NCBI RefSeq assembly: GCF_009903625.1
Contig: NZ_CP047569.1
Span: 826,001 to 890,000 of the forward strand
Length of the DNA stretch: 64,000 bases
Direction: 5' to 3'
Origin: Microbulbifer sp. ALW1
GTDB lineage: Bacteria; Pseudomonadota; Gammaproteobacteria; Pseudomonadales; Cellvibrionaceae
Positions 60,167-63,280 of this stretch are shown piece by piece (the stretch's first letter is position 1; every line of letters starts with the position of its first letter). The notes beneath the pieces were generated by a model. That model worked only from the letters and a program-made list of their open reading frames with translations, made no database searches and was not told the origin of the DNA. Position numbers and translations under genes: made by a program.

Positions 60167-61696
60167 CTAATTTACCTGAACCTGCCCGAGATCCGCATCC
60201 TGGTTGTCGCTATCGGCCAGGGTGCTGAACAGACCTTGTGAGTGGCGCTCGGGAATCTGGTAGGTCTGCAGAATGAAGGGCTGTTGCTCCAGTGCAGCGG
60301 CGGAGTCCAGCACCATACGGTAACCGGAGCTGTCTTTCAGCTCGACAAAGCCCTGTTCATTGGACTCCATCAGCTGTGAGAACTGCTGAAAGTCGCGAAT
60401 CTTCTCGCCGTTGACGGACTCAATGATCCAGTTTTTCCAGTCGTGGTAACCGAGGTTCACCGGCGCCGGCAATACCTTGAGCGCCACCACCAGCTCGCGC
60501 TGCTCCGGGGCGGACCACTGGTTGCGCGCATAGAGGTACTCGATGGGCGCTTTGGAGTGCCAGTTGTTACCCCAGCGCTTGATCAGGTTCATGTTCAGGG
60601 GCACGAACACCACACCGCCGTAGATGTAGTAGCGCGGGCGCTGGTCGAACTTTTCGCCCTGTACCAGGGAGCGCGAGGGTGGGGTCGCGGCCAGGGTGAT
60701 CTTGGCGTTGTGGATCTCGCCATCGCGGGAGAAGCGCACCGGCAACTGGTCGCCCACGTGGTAGTGATCCACCGCATAGTGGTAGTTGGTGCGCTGGTTT
60801 TCACGCCACTCGATGGTGCGGTCCGCGGCCACGTCAAAGCCATCCACCTGCAACAGCACGTCGCCGGCCTGCAGCACCTGGGCGGCGGGCGCATCCTCAA
60901 ATACCTGCACGATCAGCGCACCTTCCTGATCTTCGGTAAGACCGGCGGCGGCTTTCATGGACGGGCTCTCCAGGCTCTGGGTAACCGCGCCCAGCTCGGG
61001 GAAGCCCTGGTGCACGCCGTCTTTGGCATCTTCCAGTACGTGGCTGATGACGCTCGGGGGCACGAAGTAACCCAGGTTTTCGGCACCGTTGCTGTTGTTG
61101 GTCTGCATGGCGACACCAACGATCTTGCCGTTGGAAATCACCGGCCCACCGCTGTTACCGGGGTTGATGGCGGCATCAATCTGGCCGGCCATCAGGTAGC
61201 TTTCGGCGTGGGCGTAGTACTGGTGTTCCACCCGGGAGAGGACGCCGCGGGTAATGGAGAGGGATTTGCCGCCGATGGGGTAGCCGTAGACGGTGACCTC
61301 TTCCTGCAGCTCGGGGAGTTTGCCGAAGGCCAGTGGCTGGGTGTCGTCAAAGAATTCTTCGTCGTCGACGGTAAGCAGGGCGAGGTCGGCATCGTGGGAG
61401 ACGAATTTGACCCGCGCGCGGAATTTCTGCGCGTCGCCGTGGCGCTGTACCTGGATAAAGCTGCCGTTGGCAACGACGTGGGCGTTGGTGAGTATTTGCT
61501 GACCTTTGATGACGGCGCCGGAGCCGGACAGTTGCTGGGCGTTGAGCAGGGCCCAGGGGTTGAAGTAGTCGGGGGCGGCGGCGGTGGTGTAGATCTTGAT
61601 GATCGAGCGCTTGAGCTGCTCCCGCTCGCGGTTGTCGGCATTGGCGGCTTGCGAGAAGCACAGGATCAGCAGGCAGAAGGTCAGCAGTTGTTTCAT
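60167..61696 (-). CDS. periplasmic trypsin-like serine protease, Deg-like
   Basis: The 509-residue protein has a signal peptide (cut near ANA, residue 20) and an S1C/HtrA-like protease domain with the triad His73 (TNAHVV), Asp104 (DADLALL) and Ser182 (GNSGGP). A PDZ-like region follows (about 265-320) and a second one near 400-450, without the classic Deg length. It probably degrades or processes envelope proteins. It is inserted between hslO and hslR relative to E. coli. Element A (61845-61943) lies upstream of it. Confidence 0.9.
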   Translation of the reverse strand: MKQLLTFCLLILCFSQAANADNREREQLKRSIIKIYTTAAAPDYFNPWALLNAQQLSGSGAVIKGQQILTNAHVVANGSFIQVQRHGDAQKFRARVKFVSHDADLALLTVDDEEFFDDTQPLAFGKLPELQEEVTVYGYPIGGKSLSITRGVLSRVEHQYYAHAESYLMAGQIDAAINPGNSGGPVISNGKIVGVAMQTNNSNGAENLGYFVPPSVISHVLEDAKDGVHQGFPELGAVTQSLESPSMKAAAGLTEDQEGALIVQVFEDAPAAQVLQAGDVLLQVDGFDVAADRTIEWRENQRTNYHYAVDHYHVGDQLPVRFSRDGEIHNAKITLAATPPSRSLVQGEKFDQRPRYYIYGGVVFVPLNMNLIKRWGNNWHSKAPIEYLYARNQWSAPEQRELVVALKVLPAPVNLGYHDWKNWIIESVNGEKIRDFQQFSQLMESNEQGFVELKDSSGYRMVLDSAAALEQQPFILQTYQIPERHSQGLFSTLADSDNQDADLGQVQVN

Positions 61697-62046
61697 TGCG
61701 GCGTCGTGTTTATTCGTTGGTTTGGGGGCAGTTTAGCACTTTGGCTTTTGTTTGCTCTTTTGGGGCCCGGTTCAGAGGGCGCTCTGTTTTGCCTTTTGAG
61801 GCGGCCGGGTTGCGCTTACTTAACTCTCACAGTGGCGGCATCGCTACCGGGTGCGGTCTTGCGAGACACGCCGTAAACCCATCCATGGGGGCTCGTCTGC
61901 GGCCGTCCTGGCCGCAGACGGTCTCGCAAGACCGCACCCGGTATCGATGCCTTCTCCCATGGTTGTGCCGCTCAAATCCAAGAGCACAAGGCATTCGGCC
62001 TTCATTTCTGACTTTCGTGCTTTGTAAGTTGGAAGAACGCGAGTCC
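61697..62046. other. intergenic region with hairpin element A
   Basis: About 350 bases separate the protease start from the hslR stop. The only structured part is element A at 61845-61943. No open frame is supported. Confidence 0.65.
61845..61943 (-). repeat. hairpin element A (long stem, two GGA loops)
   Basis: The ends (61845-61867 and 61921-61943) are perfect 23-base complements. Between them, read on the minus strand, lie an 11-bp hairpin with loop AGGAC (cgtctgcggcc / ggccgcagacg) and a small CCCA-TGGA-TGGG hairpin. Element B (62488-62576) has the same layout with different arms. It may be a structured RNA or a dispersed palindromic repeat. Confidence 0.75.
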
Positions 62047-62427
62047 TCAATCCTGAGATTCACGGATAAATCTGTGAATCTGCCGGCGTTGCTTCTTGTT
62101 CGGGCGCTCGTTGGTTATGACCGCATTATTGGCCTTGCGATCCGCGGTGAACTGCTCCCGTTTTGCAACACTGTCTTCGGTTTCCCGGTAGAGCGTCTGC
62201 GCAATGTCGGCGCCGCGGCGCTGGTCGGAAAGCGCGATGACTTCAACCACTTTTTCATCCCAACCCTGGCGAATGGTTAGCAGGGTACCGGTGGTGATTT
62301 CTTTACTGGCTTTCACCCGCTGGCCTTCGGCGTGCACCTTGCCGCCTTCGATGGCCTGTTTGGCGATGCTGCGAGTTTTGAAAAAACGGGCGGCCCAGAG
62401 CCACTTATCAATACGTACTTTTTCCAT
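62047..62427 (-). CDS. hslR: ribosome-associated heat shock protein Hsp15
   Basis: The 126-residue protein begins MEKVRIDKWLWAARFFKTRS, the conserved start of Hsp15, and has an S4-type RNA-binding domain followed by a basic tail (NKKQRRQIHRF). It binds 50S subunits that carry nascent chains and helps recycle them after heat shock. The ATG at 62427 gives the family start; a start at 62445 adds six residues. It is flanked by the two hairpin elements A and B. Confidence 0.96.
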   Translation of the reverse strand: MEKVRIDKWLWAARFFKTRSIAKQAIEGGKVHAEGQRVKASKEITTGTLLTIRQGWDEKVVEVIALSDQRRGADIAQTLYRETEDSVAKREQFTADRKANNAVITNERPNKKQRRQIHRFIRESQD

Positions 62428-62487
62428 CAAAAAATTCAGAACCACTAAAGCTACGAAGCGAAAAACTTAATGCGAAGGCTGGGCGGC

Positions 62488-62576
62488 GGGTAAGGGTTTT
62501 CAGGAGCGTCGCAAACAGGATGTTTGCGCCGAAGCGCCCAGGGATGGGTTCACAGCGGTCCTGAAAACCCTTACCC
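62488..62576 (+). repeat. hairpin element B (long stem, two GGA loops)
   Basis: The ends gggtaagggttttcagga (62488-62505) and its complement (62559-62576) form a perfect 18-bp stem. Inside, on the plus strand, are gcaaac-AGGAT-gtttgc (62511-62527) and ccca-GGGA-tggg (62537-62548). It lies in the gap between yrfG and hslR, in the opposite orientation to element A. Confidence 0.75.
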
Positions 62577-62623
62577 GGTGCCCGGCCGCCACTGACGGTA
62601 AGACCGGAGCACGAGCTGAGAAA

Positions 62624-63280
62624 CTACGGAGACCAGAGTATCTCGTCAAAGTCGTGAATCGCCGGAAATTCGGTAATCTCACGGGCAGGGTTTTTGCTGT
62701 CCGGCTGGCGAATACACAGTAGATTTGCGATGCCGTAATCCCGCGCCGCACCGAGTACATGCAGGTTGTCATCCACAAACAGTGTGCGCTCGGGATCAAA
62801 CGGTTGGCGCTCCTGCAGGGAATGCCAGAAGAGGCTGCTCTCCTTGGCGTGGCCCAGGTCGTGGGAGGACACTATCTCGTCCAGCCACTGGTCGATGCCG
62901 GTGATTTCCAGCTTGTGATTCAAACCGTCCGGGTGGGCATTGGTCACCAGCAGTGCGCGCTTTTGCATAGTGCGCAGGCTGCGCAAGAAATTATCCGTGT
63001 GCGGGCGCAACGCGATGCGATCTTCGATCTCGCGGTAAATCGCGGGCACATCCAGCTTCAGGGCATCCGACCAGTAGTGCAGGCAGTACCAGTCCAGAGT
63101 GCCACGCAACTCATCGGTCATGCGGATCACCAGCGCCTGCGCCTCCGGCACCGAAATGCCATTGGCCTCCGCATAGCGCAGCGGCAGGTGCTCCATCCAG
63201 AAATGGTTGTCGTAGTGCAGATCCAACAGGGTGCCGTCCATATCCAGCAGCACCGTATCAATCCGGCTCCAGTCCAGCAT
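62624..63280 (-). CDS. yrfG: HAD hydrolase YrfG, GMP/IMP nucleotidase-like
   Basis: The 218-residue protein has HAD motif I DMDGTLLDL near residue 14, the long YrfG-type cap, motif II-like VTNAHPD and motifs III/IV around the Lys (HAKESSLFW) and FVDDNLHV. YrfG of E. coli acts on purine mononucleotides. It stands next to hslR as in E. coli and Pseudomonas. It is followed after element B by hslR in the same direction. Confidence 0.93.
   Translation of the reverse strand: MLDWSRIDTVLLDMDGTLLDLHYDNHFWMEHLPLRYAEANGISVPEAQALVIRMTDELRGTLDWYCLHYWSDALKLDVPAIYREIEDRIALRPHTDNFLRSLRTMQKRALLVTNAHPDGLNHKLEITGIDQWLDEIVSSHDLGHAKESSLFWHSLQERQPFDPERTLFVDDNLHVLGAARDYGIANLLCIRQPDSKNPAREITEFPAIHDFDEILWSP

Follow-up and report, generated by a model that had tools for sequence, protein, structure and literature searches.

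The two hairpin elements that flank an hslR-like gene in the analysed DNA (a stretch of 64,000 nucleotides, hereafter the window), designated A and B, are probably copies of a dispersed RNA that is related to TwoAYGGAY and acts as a dual-site CsrA ligand, sink or tether. The fold, covariation, strand-specific wobble, SELEX-type loops, copy number, position at gene ends and kinship were all obtained by computation; transcription, CsrA binding and titration are what we infer. An earlier reading of the sequence alone had described two hairpins with a common layout on either side of hslR, and both are found, with the following coordinates, arms and neighbours:

61837..61951, minus strand (GGA strand): element A, whole, with outer arms 61837-61867 and 61921-61951
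61894..61920, minus strand: inner hairpin 1 of element A, an 11-bp stem with the loop AGGAC on the minus strand
61878..61889, minus strand: hairpin 2 of element A, CCCA-TGGA-TGGG read on the minus strand
62477..62587, plus strand (GGA strand): element B, whole, with outer arms 62477-62508 and 62556-62587
62507..62531, plus strand: inner hairpin 1 of element B, AAACA-GGA-TGTTT
62537..62548, plus strand: hairpin 2 of element B, CCCA-GGGA-TGGG, followed by TTCACAGCG
62047..62427, minus strand: hslR/Hsp15-like gene between A and B (131.9 bits, below the model cut-off of 148)
62624..63280, minus strand: gene for a GMP/IMP nucleotidase of the HAD family, whose stop is separated from hslR by B
60167..61696, minus strand: gene for an HtrA/Do-like serine protease, downstream of A (137.1 bits with the best model, which is less than the cut-off of that model)

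Along the minus strand the order is HAD nucleotidase, B, hslR-like gene, A and HtrA-like protease. Because the called neighbouring genes are all on the minus strand, A is sense and B antisense to its neighbours, and since the GGA strand is minus in A and plus in B, the two elements are inverted relative to each other. The arms of A are 31 nt long and 97% complementary, and contain the perfect 23 bp that the sequence-only reading had reported; those of B are 32 nt long and 88% complementary, with 19 perfect bp where 18 had been counted before. In the MFE folds of both elements a long outer stem surrounds two hairpins with GGA in both loops, and the predicted probability of being unpaired is 1.0 for the GGA in both hairpins of A and of B.

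For searches beyond A and B we used a covariance model (R1) built from an alignment (A1) of 94 copies from many genera. Copies were selected for A1 by a core pattern with at most one mismatch together with a detected stem, 44 of 156 being dropped for a weak ungapped stem, and the alignment holds 92 of 100 eligible picks plus A and B. R1 scores 92.8 bits on A (61852-61936) and 68 bits on B (62491-62573), and these two, both in its building set, are its only matches in the window at E<=0.1. No Rfam family reaches its cut-off within the window, and the miRNA-like Rfam matches seen there at E<=10 were dismissed as generic long-hairpin scores. A plasmid or phage origin was also set aside, blastn having returned no match of B in plasmids and none of A in phages (one collection each).

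The elements are members of a large family. Allowing up to three mismatches, a search of the genome (4.68 Mb) locates the 21-nt core pattern at 67 places, of which 33 are forward and 34 reverse, and the reversed pattern, used as a control, at one, which rules out chance hairpins. An outer stem of 12-40 positions is present at all 67 places, although the pattern lies outside the stem; this count comes from a stem search run without a shuffled control. R1 finds at least 120 matches at E<=0.01 in the same genome, 114 of them at E<1e-7, and because the scoring covered 150 of 1440 candidates, 120 copies is a lower bound. A typical copy has an outer stem of about 30 bp, an inner hairpin usually with a GGA loop, and a CCCA-NGGA-TGGG or TACA-NGGA-TGTA hairpin. 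In a sample of the genus, R1 matches 38 of 40 genomes at E<=0.001 and copy numbers range from 0 to at least 113, and in a sample of the phylum 17 of 200 genomes have a match, all 17 in the same class, Gammaproteobacteria; counts per genome are limited to the candidates scored, which were 113 for the genus, 22 for the phylum and 11 for the class survey with TwoAYGGAY described below. A core scan of named genomes gave at least 119 stretches, and all but two carry titles of organisms that we take to be Gammaproteobacteria, the exceptions among the 119 stretches listed being one Bacillus record and one unspecified Pseudomonadota. Microbulbifer, Halomonas, Marinobacter, Stenotrophomonas, Xanthomonas, Shewanella, Rheinheimera and Methylotuvimicrobium are among the genera in the matches listed. 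The suggestion of the sequence-only reading that A and B could be a dispersed palindromic repeat of gammaproteobacteria is thereby borne out, by at least 120 copies in the genome and by many relatives, and the covariance-model search that it had proposed returns many matches in both, with covarying stems. In the open-licence PMC literature we recognised no publication describing this dispersed family, six 16-nt core strings have no occurrence in open-licence PMC papers, and the excerpted text of PMC9788540, on Alcanivorax CsrR1/CsrR2, describes no dispersed repeat of this kind.

Of the known families, TwoAYGGAY (Rfam RF01731), listed in Weinberg 2010 (PMC2864571), comes closest. In the excerpted text of PMC4333381 it is proposed on motif grounds to bind CsrA, and that motif-based proposal is the only statement on function there, with no tested function described. 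Five places in the genome match the TwoAYGGAY model at E<=1. Each of them lies on an element, and the best scores 31.5 bits, below the gathering cut-off of 43 bits. This best match spans the whole model (1-168) and keeps the GGA; the end-to-end alignment comes from one copy, and the base before GGA is often G rather than the Y of AYGGAY. The model gives no match to A and B even at E<=10, and none at the cut-off in 18 loci from relatives. When 229 genomes of the class were surveyed, the TwoAYGGAY model matched 18 of them at E<=0.01 and 11 above the cut-off, often with several copies per genome. When 11 above-cut-off TwoAYGGAY loci were rescanned, R1 matched three strongly at the same place (L338, L341 and L342) and was weak or absent at the other eight, so that it is through these three loci that the elements are continuous with accepted TwoAYGGAY members. 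TwoAYGGAY belongs to the same Rfam clan as CsrB (CL00106), and R1 has no match to E. coli csrB. Because of the five matches below the cut-off, the overlap with R1 and the shared clan, we call the elements TwoAYGGAY-like, and not members by the curated cut-off.

Like TwoAYGGAY, the elements combine a long outer stem with two adjacent GGA-loop hairpins and are multi-copy in some Gammaproteobacteria. They differ in that their matches in the genome stay below the cut-off, in their loops (ANGGA, compared with AYGGA in TwoAYGGAY), in having at least 100 copies per genome, located at gene ends and with optional inserted modules, and in usually carrying a GGGTTYACRGCG or TGTATTCACAGCG tail. Our reading is that the family is a TwoAYGGAY-like RNA with two putative CsrA sites, present in many copies and not annotated so far. 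With CsrB, CsrC and RsmXYZ the elements share GGA hairpin loops that fit CsrA, but those are single-locus sRNAs with many hairpins, whereas the family has two hairpins per copy in 120 scattered copies. ERIC repeats, intergenic palindromes of about 125 bp in Gammaproteobacteria, are similar in location and host class, but probably differ in sequence.

In the loops of the family, the GGA is largely kept. Hairpin 2 keeps NGGA in 117 of 120 copies in the genome, the other three being unparsed, although its stem varies between CCCA/TGGG, TACA/TGTA or CGTA, TTCA/TGAA and CACA/CGTG; the region of hairpin 1, which falls into several sequence classes, holds GGA in 118 of 120. The 12-nt SELEX consensus of CsrA is RUACARGGAUGU, as given in the excerpted text of PMC7652899. 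It is present exactly in 37 of 120 copies, and ACARGGAUGU in 50 of 120, and both are absent from the 385,137 bases that were examined outside the elements in the same genome; since the copies are related, these counts are not independent events. The mean predicted probability that the GGA is unpaired is 0.99 for hairpin 1 (n=116, best GGA of the region) and 0.84 for hairpin 2 (n=120), compared with 0.16 for a background of 1075 GGA, and it is above 0.8 for hairpin 2 in 97 of 120 copies and for both hairpins in 93 of 120. Based on the motif, the predicted accessibility of the loops and the kinship with TwoAYGGAY, binding of CsrA by the elements is well supported. The CsrA-type GGA loops pointed out by the sequence-only reading have thus gained the SELEX fit, the accessibility and the kinship, and the binding itself we infer.

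A CsrA family match was found in 35 of 40 genomes of the genus, and four further genomes of the genus gave none; the nearest relative at the hslR locus (G015, 89%) has a 65-residue CsrA. Most relatives have one or two matches, and eight (G003, G004, G006, G009, G010, G014, G043 and G050) have 5 to 19. These eight, with at least five CsrA genes each, carry 1, 1, 2, 3, 3, 6, 12 and 73 elements, compared with a median of 70 in the 27 genomes with one or two CsrA genes (p=0.005, ignoring phylogeny and leaving out genomes without a CsrA match). With the exception of G006, the genomes with many CsrA genes carry few elements, and this may reflect a link or simply one clade.

As for the stems, 90.8% of cells pair in A1 compared with 58.8% in shuffled alignments, two-sided changes occur in 842 cells compared with 262, and the covariation score is 0.754 compared with 0.191 for shuffled and at most 0.167 for slid controls; because A1 was picked by core and stem, this covariation leans to paired copies, and hairpin 2 is kept constant in A1 by that selection. 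The number of pairs in A1 with a two-sided change, 25 of 28, shows no excess over the shuffles (24.5). A less biased type of evidence is strand asymmetry, since G·T and A·C mismatches should be equally frequent without strand-specific selection. Read on the GGA strand, the stems of 119 of the 120 model-picked copies contain 190 G·T, 9 A·C and 165 other mismatches next to 3358 Watson-Crick pairs, and in the 67 core-picked copies the corresponding mismatch counts are 77, 6 and 66, many of the wobbles and other mismatches being common to whole classes of copies. In the inner 19 bp, with the class-wide position 2 left out, there are 23 G·T and 4 A·C. The excess over the whole stem is found in three orientations relative to genes (G·T/A·C 77/2 in sense, 59/5 in antisense and 52/2 in convergent copies); when antisense copies are taken by themselves, their inner 19 bp contain 9 G·T and 3 A·C, which is not a significant difference (p=0.15). 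Because G·T outnumbers A·C by 190 to 9, folding of the GGA strand appears to be under selection, with the qualification that in a hairpin of single-stranded DNA, too, G·T would be somewhat better tolerated than A·C. Selection on structure, which the sequence-only reading had favoured, is supported by both the covariation and the strand bias, and a base-pair covariation check of the type it had put forward gives a score well above both types of control.

Copy-to-copy divergence may nevertheless be due partly to the exchange of whole elements, and not to stepwise compensation. R1 matches the loci of relatives at 13 of 29 A-sites and 19 of 29 B-sites, including one weak match at each (E 0.005 and E 0.009, respectively), and the copies there usually have different arms and often another inner class. 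The B-site of G015 holds a chimera with mismatched arms, which counts against perfect maintenance. Two relatives, G021 and G038, were compared over a 400-kb block of which 320 kb align at 87% identity. Here, 69 elements are found, with 26 sites in common, three of these inverted; ten elements have no counterpart, and six of G021 and one of G038 could not be placed. In spite of flanks that are 84-98% identical, class, arms or modules are usually not the same in the elements at the common sites, and exchange of whole elements therefore probably contributes to turnover. Taken further, these differences, the three inversions and the G015 chimera would suit an origin of the covariation mostly in gene conversion or template switching, of the whole element or of one arm onto the other, in place of structural selection. 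We regard this as very improbable: conversion makes no distinction between the strands, but G·T exceeds A·C by 190 to 9; the GGA loops persist as stems change; and at site 209921 the sole difference inside the element, read by eye as were the terminators and remnants below, is a compensated A-T to G-C change. At the B-sites of G023 and G047 and the A-site of G052, REP/REPIN-like or CCGGCAT-type palindromes are seen by eye instead, as if the gene junctions of A and B were hot spots for palindromic repeats.

With home-made heuristics for ORF calling and terminator scanning, all 120 copies are intergenic and 117 adjoin the 3' end of a gene. The median distance to the stop codon is 48 nt on the sense side (79 gene ends) and 38 nt on the antisense side (65 gene ends), and some distances exceed 180 nt. 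Relative to genes, 52 copies are sense, 38 antisense (p=0.17), 27 convergent and three divergent. With an orientation so close to random, a role that is collective or linked to mobility is favoured over a tag on the upstream mRNA. The proposal of the sequence-only reading that the elements might mark mRNAs is doubtful for this reason and because B, antisense to both neighbours, argues against a simple tag there. Intrinsic terminators accompany 13 of 116 gene ends with an element and 31 of 114 without (p=0.0024), the bulk of the difference coming from convergent ends (5 of 36 compared with 13 of 26, p=0.004); at co-directional ends (8 of 80 compared with 18 of 88) it is not significant (p=0.09).

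Together with the location of 117 of 120 copies, these terminator counts are what would be expected if the elements were primarily 3'-end structures, in which a long hairpin ends or trims transcripts in both directions, as an RNase III substrate, a substitute terminator or an exonuclease block, and the GGA loops play a secondary part. The length of the duplex suffices for RNase III, and two of the ten sites in the sister species that have no element show a canonical terminator, as judged by eye. On the other hand, the 3' flank profile of the GGA strand in 67 copies contains no T-run after the stem, so that the GC stem directly followed by a T-run of an intrinsic terminator is absent from that strand; tolerance of insertions at gene ends predicts the same location; and neither the conserved loops nor the wobble bias of antisense copies (59 to 5) is explained. 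We therefore consider a role confined to the 3' end unlikely, although the terminator data keep such a role alive and it could be compatible with CsrA binding.

Similarities are also noted with REP, BIME and REPIN sequences, which are dispersed palindromes at gene 3' ends, in both orientations and in inverted pairs. The elements have the same distribution, and their 19 neighbour pairs within 450 nt are all in opposite orientation. This, the patchy occurrence within the genus (0 to at least 113 copies) and the other palindromic repeats seen by eye at some orthologous sites agree with a REP- or MITE-like DNA repeat that is selfish, is mobilised in hairpin form by a transposase and is paired for mobility rather than for RNA function. 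However, unlike REP sequences, the elements are about 110 nt long, with a three-way junction and GGA loops, and no Y1/RAYT gene was found next to them: the genome has just two Y1-transposase matches at E<=0.001, of which one is interrupted by stops and the other, the sole uninterrupted frame, scores 26.9 bits, with about 21 kb between it and the closest of the 120 elements. The ten absent sites of the G021/G038 comparison, examined by eye, comprise two canonical terminators, four element remnants and four without a readable interval, and no clean empty site was recognised among them. Loops with the CsrA consensus are likewise not predicted by a DNA hairpin, and a purely selfish repeat is in our judgement an improbable explanation.

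For a dual-site CsrA ligand, the following mechanism can be envisaged. On the GGA strand, the outer stem of about 30 bp would close a three-way junction with two adjacent GGA-loop hairpins, which would suit both RNA sites of one CsrA dimer. Copies near gene 3' ends would be transcribed by read-through or from the other side, and those with a transcribed GGA strand could jointly form a CsrA sink distributed over the genome, or could hold CsrA on single transcripts; the bound protein might then affect local stability or processing, or be titrated by the sum of the copies. A more far-reaching version is entertained only tentatively, namely that a scattered, fast-evolving repeat buffers a global RNA-binding regulator. 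In this version the dual CsrA sites at gene 3' ends, more than 100 in number, would also serve as terminators or take their place and would titrate CsrA in step with the overall read-through of transcription, and the copies would go on exchanging sequence, class and modules with selection acting on fold and loops alone. With more than 100 copies in one genome, a defined strand and loops of the SELEX type, the proposal linking TwoAYGGAY to CsrA becomes directly testable. If CsrA binds, a class of repeats usually regarded as inert would act at gene ends as a sink for a regulator across the whole genome, and titration models for CsrA that are based on a few sRNAs would need revision. The family is in addition a clear case of fast sequence turnover combined with strict RNA structure.

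Several minor features of individual copies and records were noted. The Bacillus record, titled Bacillus subtilis SK7B5 (L167), has an element like one of Stenotrophomonas maltophilia (L079), perhaps owing to contamination or a mislabelled contig. Two IMG/VR viral contigs (L213 and L214) have three core copies between them, two of which are nearly identical. At positions 1288-2652 of L280 (G244), a 227-bp unit is repeated six times head-to-tail with one element per unit, each located near a REP-like GTAGGAGCGGCTTCAGCCGCGA hairpin. In the genome of the window, the left flanks of the elements have a weakly conserved GCGAAGG, often with TACGAAG further out, and the right flanks a weakly conserved CCGCCAC, often with GCTNCGAAGC further out; these words reach past the stem and are able to form small palindromes, and GTAG is present inside many right arms. 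Two modules recur. In several copies a module of about 16 nt, GGGGGCGCCTAGCTCG, takes the place of the CRGCG end of the core, for example at G000:C1:1459629, 4401107 and 4470303 in the same genome and at the A-site of G015, and might provide an alternative pairing with GAGC. The second, GGCCGAAGGCGCCGCG...GCGGCCGGG, lies within the loop of hairpin 1, where it interrupts the GGA, as in G000:C1:2006996, L195, the B-sites of G038 and G051, and the A-site of G040.
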